Assembly: GCF_000293885.2 (NCBI RefSeq)
Contig: NZ_CP010945.1
Span: 3,864,001 to 3,928,000, forward strand
DNA length: 64,000 nt
Direction of reading: 5' to 3'
From: Pseudomonas fluorescens NCIMB 11764
Lineage (GTDB): Bacteria; Pseudomonadota; Gammaproteobacteria; Pseudomonadales; Pseudomonadaceae
Below, one piece after another: positions 21,248 through 62,530 of this stretch. The position numbers and the translations under genes are program-made. How positions within the stretch are numbered: position 1 is the first letter of the stretch; each line of letters begins with the position of its first letter. A model generated the notes under the pieces. It was not told the DNA's origin. It saw nothing but the letters and a program-made list of their open reading frames with translations, and ran no database searches.

Positions 21248-21291
21248 ACACCCCCAATCCCCTGTGGGAACCCCCAGGGGATTGGGGGTGT
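21248..21291. repeat. Perfect 17-bp inverted repeat in a promoter region
   Basis: ACACCCCCAATCCCCTG at 21248-21264 is exactly reverse complementary to CAGGGGATTGGGGGTGT at 21275-21291, separated by 10 bases. No T-run follows, so it is not a standard terminator. Its right arm ends where the TGTATC pair begins, in front of the formamidase-like gene. Confidence 0.85.
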
Positions 21292-21306
21292 GTATCTCAC
21301 TGTATC
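21291..21306 (+). promoter_or_regulatory. TGTATC direct repeat with 10-bp period (putative response-regulator site)
   Basis: TGTATC occurs at 21291-21296 and again at 21301-21306, exactly one helical turn apart, about 120 bases before the start of the formamidase-like gene. The same arrangement occurs in front of the two-component locus (28968-29051). OmpR-family regulators usually bind such direct repeats. That this is the site of the RR encoded at 28156-28896 is inference. Confidence 0.5.
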
Positions 21307-21426
21307 TAAACACCACCCCGACACATTCCAGTTCATTCCCCGCCACTGCCGAACACAGCCCAGATACAAACCTGCGATGAACTGCATAGGCCGCTTGGCG
21401 CCCTATACACCGTGAAGGGGACAACA

Positions 21427-22761
21427 ATGACCATGCTCCTGCCTGAAACCGACCTGAATTCCACCCCCGTCGATCGCCTGCGCGTCGACCAATACACCAA
21501 CGGCCTCATCGGCCCGAGCCAGCCGATGCTCGGCCCATTGGCCGACGGTGGCACCCTGATCACCGGCACGCCGCCGGGCTGTTGGGGGCCGATGATTACG
21601 CCAGCCTTCGAGGGCGGCCATGAAGTCACTCAACCGGTGGCCATCGCCGGTGCCGAAATCGGCGATGCCGTGGCGATCAAGATCAAAAGCATGCGCGTCA
21701 CGTCGCTGGCCACCTCGTCCGGGGTGATGAGTTTTGTCGAAGGCCGATACAACGGCGACCCGTTCGTTTCGAAATTCTGCAGCAAATGCGGCACCGAACA
21801 CCCGGCCAGCCACGTCGAAGGCATCGGCGAGGATTCGATTCGCTGCAACAACTGTGGCGCCGAGGTCAGCGCGTTCCGTTTCAGCCACGGTTACGTGATC
21901 GTGTTCGATGCGCAGAACCAGGTCAGCCTGACCGTCAATCAGGACATCGCCAATCAACTGGCCGGTAACGCCTCCGAAATGTCGGCGCTGCCGGAATTCG
22001 CCGCCCAGCATTCGATCCTGTCCCTGGCCCGCGCTGACATTCCCGGCGTCGCCGCGCACATGCGGCCGTTCCTCGGCAACATCGGCACCACGCCGTCGCG
22101 GGACTTGCCGGACTCGCACAACTGCGCCGATTTCGGCCAGTACCTGATCGGCGCGCCGCACCGTTTCGGCATGACCCGCGAAGAACTCCACGCGGCCAAG
22201 ACCGACGGTCACATGGACACCAACTCGATCCGCGAAGGCTGCGTGCTGATCTGCCCGGTGAAAGTCCCGGGTGCCGGCGTGTACATGGGCGACATGCATG
22301 CCCAGCAGGGCAACGGCGAAATCGCCGGGCACGCCACCGACTGCTCCGGGGAAACCGAAGTGCAGGTCGAAGTGATCAAGAACCTGACCCTGGAAGGGCC
22401 GATCCTCCTGCAGAACCTCGACGATCTGCCGCCGATGGCCCGGCCGATGAATGCCCGGCAGCGGCAGAAAGTCCGTGAGCTGGGCGAGCGCTGGGGTCAG
22501 CATGACATCGAAGAGAGCGGCCCGATCACCTTCATCGGCAGTGGCGAAAACCTTAACGTGGCGGTGGAAAACGGCCTGAAACGCGCCGCCTCGGTCACCG
22601 GCCTGCCGTATGACGAAGTACTCAACCGCGCGACCATCACCGGTTCCATCGACATCAGCCGCTTGCCGGGCACTGTGCGCGTGACGTTCCTGTGCCCGAT
22701 GCCGGTGCTGGATCGCATGGGCATTGGCCATCTGGTTCGCGAGAAATACGACCTGGCGTAA
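21427..22761 (+). CDS. Acetamidase/formamidase family protein with a zinc-ribbon insertion
   Basis: The 444-residue protein belongs to the FmdA/AmdA family ([15 protein letters not shown] near the N-terminus, [20 protein letters not shown] in the middle). Those enzymes hydrolyse formamide or acetamide to ammonia. It carries an extra segment with C118-x2-C121 and C140-x2-C143, which looks like a zinc or metal ribbon. AAGGGG lies just before the ATG at 21427. It is followed by the DUF692-DUF2063 pair on the same strand and preceded by the TGTATC repeat, so amide hydrolysis of a metabolite may not be its real job here. Confidence 0.83.
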
Positions 22762-22804: not shown

Positions 22805-22904
22805 CGATACAACCGCTGCGATTTTCTGCCGGAACGGAACACAGGCCCGATACACCGCTTCGGTTAACTGTGATTCTGTTCTGGCAACCCCTGAGATCGA
22901 CATC

Positions 22905-23744
22905 ATGCAGACTTCCCTCACATCAACGAAGGCCACCGTCGGACTTGGCCTGCGTCGCGGTTTAATGAAGGACCTCCAGGCCGCCCCGGTGGGCGATTTC
23001 GACTTCCTGGAAGTCGCGCCGGAGAACTGGATCGGCATCGGCGGCGCCCATGGCGCGGCGTTGCGCGCCCTGGCCGAGCGGTATCCGTTGTCCTGTCACG
23101 GTCTGTCGCTGTCACTGGGCGGGCCGGCGCCGCTGGACGTCGGGTTTTTGCAGGAAGTCCGGGGTTTTCTTGATCAATACAACGTGCCGCTGTACAGCGA
23201 ACACCTGAGCTACTGCAGCGATGACGGCCACCTTTACGACCTGTTGCCGCTGCCCTTTACCGAAGAAGCGGTGCATCACGTCGCCGCGCGCATTCGCCAG
23301 TCCCAAGACATCCTCGGTCGGCGCCTGGCGGTGGAAAATGTCTCTTACTACGCCGCGCCACAGCAAGACATGGACGAGCTGACGTTCACCAATGCGGTGC
23401 TGCGCGAAGCCGATTGCGACCTGTTGCTGGACGTCAACAATGTGTACGTCAACTCGATCAACCACGGTTTCGATCCGCAGACCTTTCTGGCCGGCATCGA
23501 TTCGGGGCGGGTGGTGGCGATGCACATAGCCGGGCATTTCGATGAGTCCGATACCTTGAAAATCGACACCCATGGCGCCTCGGTGAAGCCAGTGGTCTGG
23601 TCGTTGCTGGCCGAGGCCTATGCCCGGTTCGGCGCGCAACCGACGTTGCTGGAGCGGGATTTCAATTTCCCTGCGTTCTCTGAATTGGTCGCCGAATTGC
23701 GAACCATCCGCCGCTTGCAGGCCAAGGGGATGAACCGTGGATAA
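22905..23744 (+). CDS. DUF692 (UPF0276, MNIO) multinuclear iron oxidase-like protein
   Basis: The 279-residue TIM-barrel protein is of the UPF0276/DUF692 family, the same family as MbnB, TglH and the bufferin enzyme BufB. Metal-binding residues are visible: H65 ([10 protein letters not shown]), the SEHLSYC segment, [24 protein letters not shown] and ERDFNFP. Characterised members use two or three irons to oxidise cysteines in a precursor peptide. The start at MQTSLTS was chosen because the longer frame crosses the inverted repeat. It overlaps the DUF2063 gene by 8 bases. Unusually, no small precursor gene lies upstream. Confidence 0.9.
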
Positions 23745-24495
23745 ACCCACCCTGTTTCAACAGCAGAACACCCTGGGTCTTTACCTGCGCGACCCGGAAC
23801 ACTGCGCGCCACCGGCCGGGATGGATGTGGCGCGGGCGCAGGTTTACCGCGACTTGATTTTCAACAACCTGTCGATGCTGCTCAGCGGCACTTTTCCGGT
23901 GTTGATCAAGATTCTGGGTGATGAGCACTGGCGTTCGCTGATGCGGATCTTCCTGCGGGACTACCGCGCGCACACGCCGAAATTCGGTGAGATCGCCCAG
24001 GAATTCGTCGAGTTTCTTGCCGCACAGCCGCCGGCGTTGAACGACGGGCCGTGGCCGCCTTTCATGGTGGAGCTGGCGCATTACGAGTGGGTCGAGATGG
24101 CGTTGCAGCAGTCCGAGGCCGAGCCGTTACCGGCGAGCGACGCCGGGGCGCTGCTGGATCGACCGTTGCGGATTTCGCCGCTGGCCTGGCCGTTGGCGTA
24201 TGCCTGGCCGGTGCATTTGGTCGGACCGGATTATCAACCGGACGCTGTACCGGCCGAGCCGACGTTGCTGCTGGTGCGGCGGGTTGAGGACTGGAGTGTG
24301 AAGTTTTCCGCGCTGAGCCCCTTGGCGTGGCGGTTGTTGCAACGCATTGGAGAGTTTCCCGAACTGAACGGGCGGGCGCAGCTGGAGGGATTGGCCGTCG
24401 AGGCAGGAACCACCGGATCGCAGGACTTCATCGACAGCGGGACGGCGTTGTTGCGGCAGATGCAGGGAGAAGGGGTGGTTGGCGTAATTGCCTGA
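23737..24495 (+). CDS. DUF2063 (putative DNA-binding-like/MNIO partner) protein
   Basis: The 252-residue protein has the DUF2063 N-terminus ([21 protein letters not shown] then [17 protein letters not shown] and [12 protein letters not shown]), which in MbnC and BufC recognises the precursor peptide and presents it to the DUF692 enzyme. [15 protein letters not shown] is the second conserved block. A C-terminal winged-helix-like part follows. It starts with GTG at 23737, behind AAGGGG, inside the end of the DUF692 gene, so the two are translationally coupled. Confidence 0.88.
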
Positions 24496-26845: not shown

Positions 26846-28159
26846 TTACTGACTGACAGGTCGAGTCGGCAACTTCAACTCTGCACACAAACCGCCGCCC
26901 TCGCGGTTGCTCAAGGTCAGGGAGCCGCCGATGGCCAGTGCCAGTTGCTGGGCAATCGCCAGGCCCAGGCCGGTCCCGCCGGTGCTGCGGTTACGCGAGT
27001 TTTCCACGCGGTAGAACGGCTCCATCACGTGGGCCAGTTCTTCTTCGGCAATCCCGGGGCCGCGATCCATCACCTTCAACGACAAACTGCCGCCGGGTTT
27101 CGACTCCACCCGCAATTCAGCCGCGCCAGCGAATTTGAGCGCGTTGTCCGTGAGGTTCACCAGCACACGTCGCAATGCATGCGGCCGGATATCAATGACC
27201 GCTTCACTTTTTCCACTGAGCTGTACGTCTTTGCCCACGTCCTGATAGTCGAACACCAGGCTGTCGAGGAACGAATCCAGATCGGTGCGGCGGTTCTCTT
27301 CGGTGGCGCCATGGACGCTGCGGGCATAGGCCACACCTTCACGCACCAGGTGCTCCATTTCGCCGAGATCGTTCCACAGTTTGTCTTTTTCGCTGCAGTC
27401 GTCCATGAGTTCGGCGCGCAGTTTCATGCGCGTGATCGGCGTTTGCAGGTCGTGGGAAATCGCTGCCAGCAGTTGCATGCGTTCTTTCAGATAGGCCGCG
27501 ATGCGCGCCTGCATGGCGTTGAAGGCCATGGCGGCATGGGCGACTTCGGTCGGGCCTTTTTCATCCAGGTGCACGGCGTGGGTGTTGGGGTCCAGCGTTT
27601 CTACCGCCTGCGCGAGGCGGGTGAGGGGGCGGATGGCGATTCGCACGGCCAGCCAGGTGCAGAGGATCATCAGCAACAGTTGGCCCAGCAGAACGATGGG
27701 CAACCAGGGCGACAGCGGCACCATCGTCGGGATCACGTCGATGGTCACCGGGCTGCCATCGGCCAGTTTCAGATGGACCTGGAAGTGTTTTACCGGGCCG
27801 GGAATGTCGGTCATGGTCATTGGGTAGTCCTTGCCGATGGCGTCCTTGATCGACGTCATTGCAATCGGCGTGTCGCTCATGGCCGTACCCGGTGAGCCTT
27901 CATTCAGCAAGTAGCGGTAGTTACGGCGATTCAGCTGTTTCAACCAACTCATGCGTTCTTCGGCCGGCAAGCGGTCGAGGATGGCAATGGAGGTCGAAAC
28001 GTCGGTTTCCAGATTGCCGAGCATGGTGTTTTTCGAGCTTTCGTAACGCTCGTAATACTGCGCGCCGAACGACAGTGCCTGCGCCAGAATCAGACCGATC
28101 AGAAAGATCAGCGACAGCCGCGAGGCGAGGGTGCGAGGCCAGCGCAGAGAGTATTTCAT
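26846..28159 (-). CDS. Two-component sensor histidine kinase (probable copper/Dsb-type sensor)
   Basis: The 437-residue membrane kinase has two transmembrane helices (residues about 13-33 and 152-172) bounding a periplasmic domain of about 120 residues, then HAMP, a HisKA domain with H236 in AAISHDLQTPITRM, and an HATPase_c domain (NLTDNAL, DRGPGI, GGTGLGLAIAQQLA). It phosphorylates the response regulator encoded just upstream; the ATG overlaps that gene's stop (ATGA). Next to dipZ, the pair matches the P. aeruginosa PA2479-PA2480 (DsbRS) locus, described as copper-responsive; that orthology is inferred from context. Confidence 0.9.
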   Translation of the reverse strand: MKYSLRWPRTLASRLSLIFLIGLILAQALSFGAQYYERYESSKNTMLGNLETDVSTSIAILDRLPAEERMSWLKQLNRRNYRYLLNEGSPGTAMSDTPIAMTSIKDAIGKDYPMTMTDIPGPVKHFQVHLKLADGSPVTIDVIPTMVPLSPWLPIVLLGQLLLMILCTWLAVRIAIRPLTRLAQAVETLDPNTHAVHLDEKGPTEVAHAAMAFNAMQARIAAYLKERMQLLAAISHDLQTPITRMKLRAELMDDCSEKDKLWNDLGEMEHLVREGVAYARSVHGATEENRRTDLDSFLDSLVFDYQDVGKDVQLSGKSEAVIDIRPHALRRVLVNLTDNALKFAGAAELRVESKPGGSLSLKVMDRGPGIAEEELAHVMEPFYRVENSRNRSTGGTGLGLAIAQQLALAIGGSLTLSNREGGGLCAELKLPTRPVSQ

Positions 28160-28896
28160 GATGGCGCACCGAGGACTTCGACCGGCAGGGAAAACACATA
28201 GCCCTCACTGCGCACGGTCTTGATGTAGGCCGGTTCCCGTGCATCGTCGAGCAAGCGCTGACGCAAGCGGCTGACCAGCAAGTCGATGGAGCGGTCGAAC
28301 AGGTCAGCGTCGCGGCCCTGGGTCAGGTTCAGCAACTGGTCACGATTGAGCACGCGCTGAGGATGGTCGAGGAATACCCGCAGCAACCGATACTCCGCGC
28401 CGCTGAGGGCGACCATGGTGCCGTCGTCATCGAGCAAGTGGCGGGCGGAGGTGTCGAGGCGCCAGCGACCGAAGGCCAGCAGGCGCCCGCTTTCGGTGAC
28501 CACCAGGTTCGGCGGCAGCATCCGCGTACGGCGCAACACCGCATTGATCCGCGCCAGCAATTCACGGGCGGCGAACGGCTTGACCAGATAGTCGTCGGCG
28601 CCCATTTCGAGGCCGATGATGCGGTCGGTTTCATCGTTGCGGGCGGTGAGCATCAATACCGGGGTGGCCTTGTGCTTGCCGGCGCGGATCTCGCGGCACA
28701 GCATCAGGCCATCGTCGCCCGGCATCATGATGTCGAGCACGATCAGGTCCACCGGCGTGGACTCCAGGAACGCGCGCATCTGTCGGCCGTCAGCGACAAC
28801 GGTGGTGCGCAGGCCGTTCTTCTTCAGGTAGTTGCCTACCAGCTCTCGAATCTCGCGGTCATCGTCCACGATGAGAATGTGATCGACGTGTTCCAT
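28156..28896 (-). CDS. OmpR-family response regulator
   Basis: This 246-residue regulator has a receiver domain with D11/D12, the phosphoacceptor D55 (VLDIMMPG), and K107 (LVKPFA), followed by a winged-helix OmpR-type DNA-binding domain (LSGAEYRLLRVFL ... RSIDLLVSRLRQRL ... IKTVRSEGYVF). It should bind direct repeats. It is divergent from the DUF2790-peptide-dipZ genes. AGAGG precedes the ATG at 28896. Clusters of TGTATC repeats in the upstream region are the natural candidates for its own operator. Confidence 0.93.
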   Translation of the reverse strand: MEHVDHILIVDDDREIRELVGNYLKKNGLRTTVVADGRQMRAFLESTPVDLIVLDIMMPGDDGLMLCREIRAGKHKATPVLMLTARNDETDRIIGLEMGADDYLVKPFAARELLARINAVLRRTRMLPPNLVVTESGRLLAFGRWRLDTSARHLLDDDGTMVALSGAEYRLLRVFLDHPQRVLNRDQLLNLTQGRDADLFDRSIDLLVSRLRQRLLDDAREPAYIKTVRSEGYVFSLPVEVLGAPS

Positions 28897-29202
28897 GGGA
28901 CCAAGCCTCTGAAAATGGGGGATGACGCACAGTCTATCGAGCCTTTGCCCATTCGCCCGCCACCTTTTGTATTGCAGTGTATCTGGTGTATCGGCGGATA
29001 CACGCAGACGCAAAAACGCTGGATTTCAGGGGGTTTGTATCGCTGTGTATCCGCAGGCCCCTTTGATACGTACCGATTTACAGGCGCCGGTTTTCGACAC
29101 AGACGAGATACCTCGCAGGCTTCTAATAGGTTCCATCGAGGCAAACCCAACCGCCTCGGCTCAATTGAACGACCTACTTATTGAAGCCTTGAGGAAACCA
29201 CC
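28897..29202. promoter_or_regulatory. 306-base divergent promoter region with TGTATC repeats
   Basis: TGTATT/TGTATC occur at 28968, 28978 and 28987 (periods 10 and 9), with a mirrored GATAC at 28997. A second pair, TGTATC at 29036 and 29046 (period 10), lies towards the DUF2790 gene. Mirrored GATAC also occurs at 29065 and 29107. The left cluster lies 72-105 bases from the response-regulator start, the right one about 155 bases from the DUF2790 start. Direct repeats one helical turn apart are typical OmpR-family targets. No coding region is visible. Confidence 0.6.
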
Positions 29203-29463
29203 ATGAATACCAAAGCCATCTACGCCGCTTGCCTGTTTGCCGCCCTGAACATCTGCACCCTGTCGGCCCGTGCCGAAGCAGACGTCACCGCCAAGACCTA
29301 CTCCTACGGCACGCACCTGGACATCAAGAAAGTGGTGTCGCTGAAACAGGATGCCTCGAATTCCTGCGGGATTGTGGACGCCCAGCTGACTTACCTGGAT
29401 TCCCAGAACAAGACCCAGGTCCTGGACTACCGCAAATTTGCTGACTGCGACTCGGACAACTGA
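29203..29463 (+). CDS. Small exported DUF2790 protein
   Basis: The 86-residue precursor has a signal peptide (to about residue 24, ending SARA) and a short mature domain beginning EADVTAKTYSYGTHLDIKKV, then SCGIVDAQLTYLDSQNKTQVLDYRKFADCDSDN in two parts. It fits the DUF2790 family of small pseudomonad periplasmic proteins. Two cysteines could form a disulfide. GAGGAAA precedes the ATG. It is first in the unit that also encodes the repeat peptide and DipZ and is divergent from the response regulator. Confidence 0.85.
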   Translation: MNTKAIYAACLFAALNICTLSARAEADVTAKTYSYGTHLDIKKVVSLKQDASNSCGIVDAQLTYLDSQNKTQVLDYRKFADCDSDN

Positions 29464-29511
29464 GTCCTTCGTTGACTGATTGCCAATCCCCTTCGATACA
29501 GGAAAACCATC

Positions 29512-29766
29512 ATGAAAAACGTAACCCGCTACTTGACCGCCGCCGCCTTCGCCCTTGCCGGCGCCGCCGCCCACGCCAACACCGCCGTTGAACAAAGCAC
29601 CTGCGGCAGCAGCACCTGCTTCCAGCTGACCCCGGTGAACGAGCAGGGCGCCAACGCCTTCCTGGCACAGGATGGCTCCAGCCGTACACCGCAAGGGCAG
29701 TTGTTGGCCGAGAACGGCAGCAGCCGCACGCCACAAGGTCAGTTGCTGGATGAGCAGACGGCCTGA
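29512..29766 (+). CDS. Small exported peptide with TCGSSTC motif and 14-residue tandem repeat
   Basis: The 84-residue precursor has a signal peptide ending AHA-N (about residue 22). The mature peptide of about 62 residues holds C31 and C36 in the sequence TCGSSTCF, then two consecutive 14-residue units (LAQDGSSRTPQGQL and LAENGSSRTPQGQL) at residues 51-64 and 65-78. The repeat units differ at many silent positions, so the amino acids are conserved rather than the DNA being newly copied. No known family was recognised. Its position between DUF2790 and dipZ suggests a redox or metal-related role. AGGAAA precedes the ATG. Confidence 0.8.
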   Translation: MKNVTRYLTAAAFALAGAAAHANTAVEQSTCGSSTCFQLTPVNEQGANAFLAQDGSSRTPQGQLLAENGSSRTPQGQLLDEQTA

Positions 29767-29800: not shown

Positions 29801-29832
29801 CATGTGCGAGCGGGCAAGCCTGCTCCCACAGG
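29801..29832. repeat. Short imperfect REP palindrome before dipZ
   Basis: TGTGCGAGCGGGCAAGCCTG and CTCCCACAGG form an imperfect palindrome of the CTGTGGGAGCGGGC family. It lies between the peptide gene and dipZ, 43 bases before the dipZ start. Confidence 0.75.
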
Positions 29833-29875: not shown

Positions 29876-31108
29876 ATGTTTCTCATCGCTTTCCTGGGCG
29901 GCATATTGACCGTCCTCAGCCCCTGCATCCTCCCGGTCGTACCGTTTCTGTTCGCCGGCGTTGACCGCACTCGCTCGTCGATCCTGCTCACCCTCGGCGG
30001 CATGGTCCTGACTTTCGCCCTGATCTCCAGCCTGGCCGTGGTCAGCAGCGAATGGGTGGTACAAGCCAACAACACCGGTCGTCATGTGGCTCTGGTCGTG
30101 ATGGGTCTGTTCGCCCTGTCGCTGATATCTGCACGGGTCGGTGGCTGGCTGGCTCGCCCGTTGGTCCTGCTGGGCAACCGCCTCGACCCGGAAACCCGGA
30201 AAATGTCCGGGCCTTTGGGGTCGGTGATGATCGGTGTCGCGACAGGTCTGCTCTGGGCACCGTGCGCCGGGCCGATCCTCGGGGTGATCCTCACTGGTGC
30301 GATGCTGCAAGGCGCCAATGCGCAAACCAGTCTGTTGCTGGTGGCGTACGGCCTGGGCAGCGCGTTGTCCCTGGGCACCCTGATTTTCGCCGGTCGCGGC
30401 CTGGTCAATCGCTTGAAAGCATCGATTCCGGTCACCGGTTGGTTGCGTAAGGGGGCCGGGGTTGCGGTACTGGCCGCCGCGGTGGTGATTTCCACCGGCG
30501 CCGACAAGACTCTGCTCGCTGGCACCTCGTCCGAAGGCGTCAGTACCCTGGAGAAAGGTGTGTTGGAAAGCGTACCGAAAGTGGTGGATTACCTGGTCAG
30601 CAAGGTCAAGGCCGACACGACCATGGATAACGCCCAAGGCGCCATGCCGTCGCTGTCCGGCGCCGTCGAATGGATCAACTCGCCAGCCCTGACCAATGAC
30701 TCGCTCAAAGGCAAGGTGGTGCTGGTGGACTTCTGGACCTACGACTGCATCAACTGCCAGCACACCCTGCCTTACGTGAAAGACTGGGCGAAGAAATACG
30801 AGAAGGATGGCCTGGTGGTGATCGGCGTCCATACCCCGGAGTACGGCTTCGAACGCATCATCGGCAACGTCAAGGATCAAGTGAAGAAGCTCGGTATCAC
30901 CTACCCGGTGGCCATCGACAACAACTACGCGATCTGGCGCAACTTCGACAACCAGTACTGGCCCGCTCACTACCTGATCGATGCCAAGGGTCAGGTGCGT
31001 TTCACCCACTTCGGTGAAGGTCGCTACGAGACTCAGGAGAAGATGATCCAACAGTTGCTGGAAGAGGCCAAGGCAGACGCCAAGGCCGCCACCGCACCCG
31101 CGGCGTAA
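29876..31108 (+). CDS. dipZ: DipZ: CcdA-like membrane domain fused to a thioredoxin-like domain
   Basis: The 410-residue protein has an N-terminal CcdA-type domain of six helices with two conserved cysteine-proline motifs (LSPCILPVVPF and APCAGPILG), and a periplasmic C-terminal thioredoxin-like domain with active site C291-I-N-C294. It should carry electrons from cytoplasmic thioredoxin to periplasmic thiol proteins. The start at ATG 29876 lies behind AAGGTGA; the longer frame runs into the REP. It lies behind the DUF2790 and peptide genes, near the sensor pair, as in P. aeruginosa dsbD2. Confidence 0.92.
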   Translation: MFLIAFLGGILTVLSPCILPVVPFLFAGVDRTRSSILLTLGGMVLTFALISSLAVVSSEWVVQANNTGRHVALVVMGLFALSLISARVGGWLARPLVLLGNRLDPETRKMSGPLGSVMIGVATGLLWAPCAGPILGVILTGAMLQGANAQTSLLLVAYGLGSALSLGTLIFAGRGLVNRLKASIPVTGWLRKGAGVAVLAAAVVISTGADKTLLAGTSSEGVSTLEKGVLESVPKVVDYLVSKVKADTTMDNAQGAMPSLSGAVEWINSPALTNDSLKGKVVLVDFWTYDCINCQHTLPYVKDWAKKYEKDGLVVIGVHTPEYGFERIIGNVKDQVKKLGITYPVAIDNNYAIWRNFDNQYWPAHYLIDAKGQVRFTHFGEGRYETQEKMIQQLLEEAKADAKAATAPAA

Positions 31109-61577: not shown

Positions 61578-62530
61578 CCCGTACTCCCCTTGATGTACTG
61601 GTCGTCAACTACAACACGGCGACGCTGTTACAGCCGATGTTCGATGCATTGCGCCAGGCAAGCAGTGCGGATCCGACGCGCTATCTGGTCGTGGACAATG
61701 CCTCTGCCGATAATTCCCTGGAACGTCTGGAAAATGTTTGCCCAGAGGCATTGTTGCTGGCCAATGAAAACAATGTGGGCTTTGGCCGTGCCAACAATCA
61801 ACTGGTTGAACACTTGCAGGGCAAGTACGCGTTGCTCATCAATACCGATGCCTTCGTTGCCGCCGACACCCTGAAAAAAACCCTCGACTACATGGAGGCG
61901 CATCCGGATTGCGGAGTCCTCGGCGTTCGGCTGGTTGGCCGGGAAGGCGATCTGCAACCCTCGTGTCGCTACTTTCCGACGCCGCTGAATGTCTTCCTCT
62001 CGCGCACCGGGCTTGAACGGTTTTTCCCGGTGGTGAAGAGGGTGGATGACATGGACTGGGATCACGCCTCGGTCCGTGAGTGCGACTGGGTACCGGGCTG
62101 CTATTACCTGATCCGCCGTGAAGTCATCGACCAGGTGGGCTTGTTCGATCCGCGCTACTTCCTCTATTACGAGGAGGTCGATCACTGCAAGCGCGTCAAG
62201 CAGGCTGGCTGGAAAGTGGTGTATTACCCCGACACCACGGTGGTGCATATCGGCGGTGAGAGTGCCAAGACGGTTGTCGAGCTCAATGCGGTCAGTCGAC
62301 AGATACCCAAGATACAGATCGAAAGCGAACTGTTGTACTTCCGCAAGCACCACGGTCTGTTGGGGCTGGCTTGGCATATGTTCCTGGTTTGCCTGGGAGA
62401 TCTGATTCTGGCGCTCAAGGCACTGCTGAAAGGCCGTGGCCGAGCCGCCATCGCAACGTGCTGGCAGCATACGCGCGCTACTTGGGCGCTGCTGCGAGAA
62501 ACCCGATTCGCTACCCAACCCACACGGTAG
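61574..62530 (+). CDS. Family-2 glycosyltransferase (rhamnosyltransferase-like)
   Basis: This 318-residue GT-A enzyme has VLVVNYNTATLL at the start, the metal-binding acidic motif (LLINTDAFV in place of DxD), and the acceptor region VPGCYYLIRREVIDQVGLFD followed by YYEEVDHCKRVKQAGWKV. Such WbbL-type enzymes often transfer rhamnose. It has a C-terminal amphipathic or membrane helix (MFLVCLGDLILALKALL). Coupled to the acyltransferase before it. Confidence 0.9.
   Translation: MTRTPLDVLVVNYNTATLLQPMFDALRQASSADPTRYLVVDNASADNSLERLENVCPEALLLANENNVGFGRANNQLVEHLQGKYALLINTDAFVAADTLKKTLDYMEAHPDCGVLGVRLVGREGDLQPSCRYFPTPLNVFLSRTGLERFFPVVKRVDDMDWDHASVRECDWVPGCYYLIRREVIDQVGLFDPRYFLYYEEVDHCKRVKQAGWKVVYYPDTTVVHIGGESAKTVVELNAVSRQIPKIQIESELLYFRKHHGLLGLAWHMFLVCLGDLILALKALLKGRGRAAIATCWQHTRATWALLRETRFATQPTR

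Follow-up and report, generated by a model that had tools for sequence, protein, structure and literature searches.

P84, an unannotated peptide of 84 residues with a CX4C cysteine pair, is probably a co-regulated neighbour of the HvfB/HvfC enzyme pair and not its substrate. The best explanation, which rests on gene content, a shared promoter motif, co-occurrence and conservation, is that P84, small and exported, serves as a thiol peptide in a metal/thiol-stress regulon and is not the RiPP substrate of HvfBC, and this explanation, together with the chain of events proposed for it below, is considered fairly probable. The first-pass annotation of the window (the whole 64,000-nucleotide stretch of DNA analysed here) had put P84 forward as a possible trans substrate of the pair; since the likely targets of the pair are three other peptides in the genome, that link is probably wrong.

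The P84 gene and its locus

The P84 frame has an ATG start and lies on the plus strand (Table 1). Residues 1–22 are hydrophobic and signal-like and end in AHA before an N (cleavage after residue 22, read by eye), leaving a mature part of 62 residues with TCGSSTC (Cys31 and Cys36, CX4C) near its N-terminus; frame and sequence here agree with the first reading of an exported peptide whose mature part is about 62 residues. Two 14-residue units follow at residues 53–66 and 67–80, in which 11 of 14 residues are alike, with silent codon differences at 6 of the 11 (pN 0.15, pS 0.72, unit against unit), and the earlier statement that the repeat is kept at protein level despite silent changes is thus confirmed. 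The tail consists of the GSSRTPQGQL repeat, which is also found in a PtrA-type peptide.

At E<1e-16, orthologues occur in 44 of 199 genomes of the same genus, Pseudomonas, the next best genome following at 6.4e-10; some match at E<=0.001 is present in 70 of the 199, and those beyond the 44 are repeat-tail paralogues or remote homologues. A set of named loci (80 kept out of 97 found, partly from the same genomes as the 199) is Pseudomonas in every case, and most of its members presumably belong to the P. fluorescens complex. Against the window copy, mean pN/pS over the 80 loci is 0.32 for the signal part and 0.21 for the CX4C part, and over the 26 loci of 84 aa it is 0.63 for the linker and 0.22 and 0.28 for the two units; the number of units varies from 1 to 6, with a single unit in 27 of the 80. 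Judged by this sequence conservation, the 84-residue ORF is a genuine conserved Pseudomonas gene, and its product is under purifying selection.

When P84 was compared with Pfam and NCBIfam models, no family was over cut-off; a weak match to HdeA (E 0.18) lay under cut-off and was disregarded. No relative of solved structure was found at E<=1, and the AlphaFold model, made from the single sequence, was uninformative (mean pLDDT 46.5). Between the P84 gene and dipZ there is a REP-like stretch (29806–29830, by eye).

Table 1. Features of the window and HvfA-type genes elsewhere in the same genome (G000:C1).
Feature	Position	Strand	Basis
FmdA (acetamidase/formamidase family), upstream neighbour of hvfB	21412..22761	+	domain match
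fmdA upstream region	21291..21368	+	TGTATC-N4-TGTATC (21291), ACACAGCCCAGATACA (21353)
ACACAGGCCCGATACA element upstream of hvfB	22839..22854	+	pattern search
HvfB, MNIO (DUF692) maturase	22905..23744	+	NF003818 equivalog, 420 bits vs cut-off 360
HvfC, RiPP maturation partner (DUF2063 + NGO1945_C)	23737..24495	+	NF050145 equivalog, 261.3 bits vs cut-off 142
EnvZ-type sensor kinase	26846..28159	-	domain matches
OmpR-type response regulator, divergent from P84 operon	28156..28896	-	domain matches
Divergent control region	28968..29112	.	TGTATT-N4-TGTATC (28968), TGTATC-N4-TGTATC (29036), ACACAGACGAGATACC (29097)
DUF2790 protein, first gene of P84 operon	29203..29463	+	PF10976, 60.5 bits vs cut-off 27
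P84 (84-aa exported peptide, export read by eye)	29512..29766	+	ORF, orthologues, named loci
DipZ-like CcdA-TlpA fusion (DsbD_2 + redoxin)	29876..31108	+	domain matches
HvfA1, 67 aa	from about G000:C1:5212772		HvfA query; NF050137 and NF050188 scores
HvfA2, EF-hand tail	G000:C1 about 61980-62378 (L150)		EF-hand over Pfam cut-off
HvfA3, EF-hand tail	G000:C1 5252209-5252670 (L151:4210-4671)	-	EF-hand over Pfam cut-off

The recurrent gene order, with variations, is FmdA-HvfB-HvfC-(CdsA-PlsC-PgsA)-kinase-regulator, followed by the divergent DUF2790-P84-DipZ. The DUF2790 protein is one of 14 DUF2790 matches in the genome, and in 26 sequences of the sensor kinase Met46 is kept in all, His125 in 25 and His129 in 24. 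A zinc-ribbon-like stretch in FmdA scored 22 bits, short of the cut-off of 25. HvfB lies within the fetched stretch (flank at most 8 kb) in 53 of the 80 named loci, and of the 27 in which it was not seen, 11 had less than 7.5 kb of upstream sequence. In the window HvfC ends at 24495, so the distance to P84 of about 5 kb given by the first-pass annotation is correct (5.0 kb), and its thiol/copper-type locus is supported as a thiol/metal-type locus, which holds DipZ, the two-component system and, often, HvfBC.

P84 adjoins DipZ in 79 of the 80 named loci, the sole exception being a contig end, and the same adjacency is seen in stretches without HvfBC and a close regulator pair (L295, L296 and L116–L119). 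This constancy, together with the constraint on the CX4C part, speaks for P84 as a redox client of DipZ, or as its electron carrier, that serves thiol repair in the periplasm and has nothing to do with metal. However, the remote homologues L162–L165 stand beside the regulator with no DipZ within the fetched stretch, and the promoter is common to the HvfA genes, which points to metal, so that a purely redox role is regarded as quite unlikely.

The enzyme pair, its precursors and the common promoter

By the curated cut-offs, the DUF692/DUF2063 pair at 22905–24495 is HvfB/HvfC, and HvfB is the sole PF05114 match in the 7.0-Mb genome, that is to say, its single MNIO enzyme. Two other identities of HvfB were rejected, MbnB (TIGR04159 equivalog, 48.1 bits, cut-off 325) and BufB (NF050167 equivalog, 275 bits, cut-off 310). 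The first reading had assigned the pair to the families of the methanobactin system MbnA/MbnB/MbnC; the DUF692 superfamily is indeed shared, but the pair itself is HvfB/HvfC and HvfB falls far below the MbnB cut-off. Methanobactin precursors have a conserved Cys-Gly-Ser core, and the likeness of P84 to this core does not hold up, Cys-Gly-Ser being present in only 47 of the 80 named loci and not conserved. In the bufferin systems BufA/BufB/BufC, exported Cys peptides go with MNIO enzymes, and the precursors carry the BufA-type Pfam domain DUF2282; the locus differs from them both in the score of HvfB and in P84, which has no BufA-type or other Pfam match over cut-off.

No EGKCG ORF was found in the 64-kb window, hence no HvfA core near HvfB, and the HvfA query returned three EGKCGEGKCG ORFs from other parts of the genome, unlinked to hvfBC. 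All three pass the KCGExKCG domain model NF050137 (26.1, 24.8 and 42.4 bits, cut-off 19.5) and fail the equivalog NF050188 (21.3, 23.8 and 30.8 bits, cut-off 95), and they are therefore called 'HvfA-type'. With HvfB and HvfC over their cut-offs and three ORFs over NF050137, the set resembles the HvfA/HvfB/HvfC oxazolone/thioamide RiPP metallophore system, but the hvfA genes here are unlinked from hvfBC, two of them have EF-hand tails, and their products lie under the NF050188 cut-off. By eye, the EF-hand tails behind the KCG core are like fusions at other Pseudomonas HvfB loci. Dispersal of hvfA is not universal, since an EGKCG ORF lies in the HvfB stretch of 4 of the 27 P84 genomes read (L088, L103, L105 and L115). 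Among HvfB loci without P84, of which 20 were fetched from 20 of the 45 such genomes, 18 have an EGKCG ORF near HvfB, mostly directly upstream, and the other two (L137, L139) have none nearby and one elsewhere in each genome; the regulator pair and DUF2790 occur in 14 of these 20 loci and DipZ in 9.

The motif TGTATC-N4-TGTATM has eight exact sites in the 7.0-Mb genome, all before a small gene set. Two of the sites precede a second regulator, and the others stand one each before fmdA, the P84 operon, HvfA1, HvfA3, an alpha/beta hydrolase and a PtrA-like repeat peptide. If one mismatch is allowed, the count rises to 29, against 5 for the reversed control; among the 21 one-mismatch matches, gene assignment covered three, which lie in promoters described here (61786, 3892968 and 5383768), and the HvfA2 promoter has a site with one mismatch. 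In most cases an ACACAG-N4-GATACA element, with mismatches in several, follows 61–63 bp downstream, and hvfB in this genome has this element only. Taken alone the element is weak: allowing one mismatch gives 8 matches, and the reversed control gives 4. Five of the eight lie at regulon genes; as to the remaining three, the regions at 2540748 and 4048986 are without relatives of the window genes and 4850599 is near DUF2790 genes. The second response regulator (G000:C1:5383879-5384622, L149:2880-3623) is 90% identical to that of the window and has three promoter sites, two exact and one with a mismatch; behind it only remnants of a kinase gene are left (HK residues 189–242). The alpha/beta hydrolase-like protein (G000:C1 about 5263138-5264226, L176:5139-6227) has a signal-like start, both readings being by eye, and lies behind the same promoter.

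Across loci, the exact motif was counted within 400 bp upstream of each gene, and the reversed control gave 0 in every set. It stands before DUF2790 in 68 of 79 named P84 loci (reversed control 0 of 79) and in all 33 fetched P84 loci, and the shared TGTATC signal of the first-pass annotation is real, being common to the P84 operon and the region of the enzyme pair. In the P84-minus loci it precedes DUF2790 in 2 of 14, where half-sites number 33 against 0 in the control. HvfB has the exact site in 24 of 52, 10 of 27 and 1 of 20 loci (34 of 79 for the first two together), FmdA in 6 of 8 and 9 of 12, and a mixed, looser set of hvfA upstreams in 14 of 33; none was found upstream of HvfC, DipZ or the kinase. 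In 23 unlinked hvfA loci, comprising the 3 of this genome and 20 picked by hand (not at random) from 15 other P84 genomes, TGTATC-N4-TGTATM occurs at <=1 mismatch in 20 (reversed control 0 of 23), and ACACAG-N4-GATACA at <=1 mismatch likewise in 20 (control 0). The GATACA at 29495 was considered as a control site of P84 itself and rejected: the 400 bp upstream of DipZ, which often take in the GATACA just before P84, hold 6 half-sites against 8 in the control over 79 loci.

Co-occurrence, cysteines and the substrate question

In the 199 genomes P84 is present in 44, HvfB over cut-off in 84 and the HvfA motif in 83, HvfA being counted by a DNA pattern that tolerates one mismatch and would miss a divergent HvfA; the genomes are related, so that the counts are not independent, and the statistics ignore kinship. 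HvfA and HvfB occur together in 81 genomes, HvfA only in 2 (G011, G183) and HvfB only in 3 (G008, G113, G194), with phi 0.95. P84 and HvfB occur together in 39, P84 only in 5 (G044, G067, G090, G121, G175) and HvfB only in 45, with phi 0.50 and Fisher p 1.1e-12. HvfA tracks HvfB far better than P84 does. The joint occurrence of peptide and pair, proposed at first reading as a check, is therefore found in part: HvfB is present in 39 of 44 P84 genomes against 45 of 155 without P84, but the association is much looser than that of HvfA and HvfB. The HvfA motif is present in all 39 genomes that have both P84 and HvfB, and in none of the five P84-only genomes. Further DUF692 proteins, below the HvfB cut-off, are present in each of these five (best E from 1e-84 to 1e-86), and another MNIO could therefore act there.

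The CX4C pair was found in all 41 orthologue genomes read (41 of the 44, with G046, G137 and G151 left out), including 5 of 5 without HvfB over cut-off. In the named loci it is kept in 77 of 80, Cys36 in 80 and Cys31 in 77, and Gly follows Cys31 in 52. Cys31 is lost in L270, L287 and L289; at L270 and L289 the adjoining HvfB and HvfC frames are open, and at L287 no HvfB was found within the fetched stretch. Six remote homologues, which stand beside the same regulator pair in genomes without HvfB over cut-off, keep Cys36 only, which weakens a two-cysteine mechanism; as to their lack of HvfB, the substrate idea and simple divergence fit equally. In four of the six, no repeat was seen by eye.

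If P84 were an extra, non-canonical trans substrate of HvfBC, HvfC would bind its signal or leader and HvfB would oxidise Cys31 and/or Cys36 to give a second metallophore. The common promoter motif, the presence of HvfB in 53 of the 80 named loci, the 39 of 44 co-occurrence and the conserved, Cys-bearing mature N-terminus agree with this, and co-regulation and linkage with HvfBC are equally expected of a substrate; so does the absence of Cys31 from the six homologues in genomes without HvfB over cut-off, and the five P84-only genomes, which keep CX4C, do hold other DUF692 proteins. However, three HvfA-type precursors are present, CX4C persists in all five genomes that lack both HvfB over cut-off and the HvfA motif, Cys31 is lost at two loci whose HvfB and HvfC frames are open, Gly follows Cys31 in no more than 52 of 80, and 45 HvfB genomes have no P84. 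No EGKCG and no HvfA-like leader or core was detected in P84 either: it matched neither NF050137 nor NF050188, it was not listed by the HvfA query at E<=10, and it gave no local alignment with HvfA. Such a role is therefore judged very unlikely, and the proposal of P84 as trans substrate is not sustained. A variant in which HvfBC has P84 as a second substrate class, one that lacks EGKCG, its CX4C being matured beside HvfA and loss of the first Cys being tolerated, is likewise given a very small probability; if true, it would mean a wider recognition range for MNIO/HvfC pairs.

PtrA-type relatives and the proposed chain

PtrA has a copper role, and the 14-residue repeat of P84 is shared with PtrA-type exported peptides (NF041599): the tail is 68–74% identical to a 170-aa paralogue of the same genome, which scores 78.2 bits against the PtrA cut-off of 31. 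A PtrA-like repeat peptide (G000:C1:5385953-5386339, L149:4954-5340) lies under the same promoter and reaches 30.4 bits against 31; its signal part resembles HvfA (66% over 43 residues, HvfA query), and it has no Cys core. A PtrA-type protein (G000:C1:1826845-1827456, L006:4846-5457), with seven RTPQGQ units related to the P84 tail, is near genes that by eye resemble urease accessory genes.

It may therefore be asked whether P84 is itself a PtrA-like copper peptide, in which the exported repeat tail does the work and the cysteines are secondary. The repeat in common with the paralogue, the PtrA-like peptide under the same promoter, and units that vary in number and are conserved all the same (pN/pS 0.22–0.28) argue for it. 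On the other side, the PtrA model (cut-off 31) matches neither P84 nor two orthologues that carry 5 and 6 units, P84 has an added, conserved Cys N-terminus, the unit occurs just once in 27 of the 80 named loci, and four of the six remote homologues keep Cys36 with no repeat seen by eye. This explanation is rather unlikely, though it deserves some weight.

For the preferred explanation, that of P84 as an exported thiol peptide beside HvfBC, we infer a chain that includes the signal, the binding of the regulator, the modification of HvfA in this species and the chemistry of P84. The sensor kinase would detect a periplasmic metal or thiol signal, and the linked regulator, or its 90% identical paralogue, would act at the TGTATC-N4-TGTATM promoters and turn on DUF2790-P84-DipZ, fmdA, hvfBC, the three dispersed hvfA genes and the PtrA-like peptide. 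HvfBC would then modify, in trans, the EGKCG cysteines of HvfA1–3. P84 would reach the periplasm via Sec. Its cysteines may work there in unmodified form, as a site for thiol/disulfide chemistry or copper binding, and the TlpA domain of DipZ would plausibly keep them reduced. Copper may be the signal, as the biology of HvfA and PtrA and the conserved sensor residues Met46, His125 and His129 suggest; fmdA and the hydrolase fit copper poorly. In P. aeruginosa, DsbRS controls the dsb locus, where, as here, an OmpR-type regulator and a kinase stand beside a DipZ-like gene; the sensor of the window has no Cys in residues 25–166.

What is mainly gained, in place of a tempting but weak link of peptide and enzyme, is a dispersed hvf regulon: one HvfBC, three HvfA-type precursors (two of them with EF-hand tails), a CcdA-TlpA fusion, a CX4C peptide and a PtrA-like peptide have in common one sharply defined promoter motif beside a two-component system. 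If this is right, the regulon map would indicate the way in which RiPP metallophore precursors act in trans in Pseudomonas; the promoter motif would offer a DNA handle with which unlinked precursors could be sought in further genomes, and P84 would serve to mark the stimulus that the system senses.
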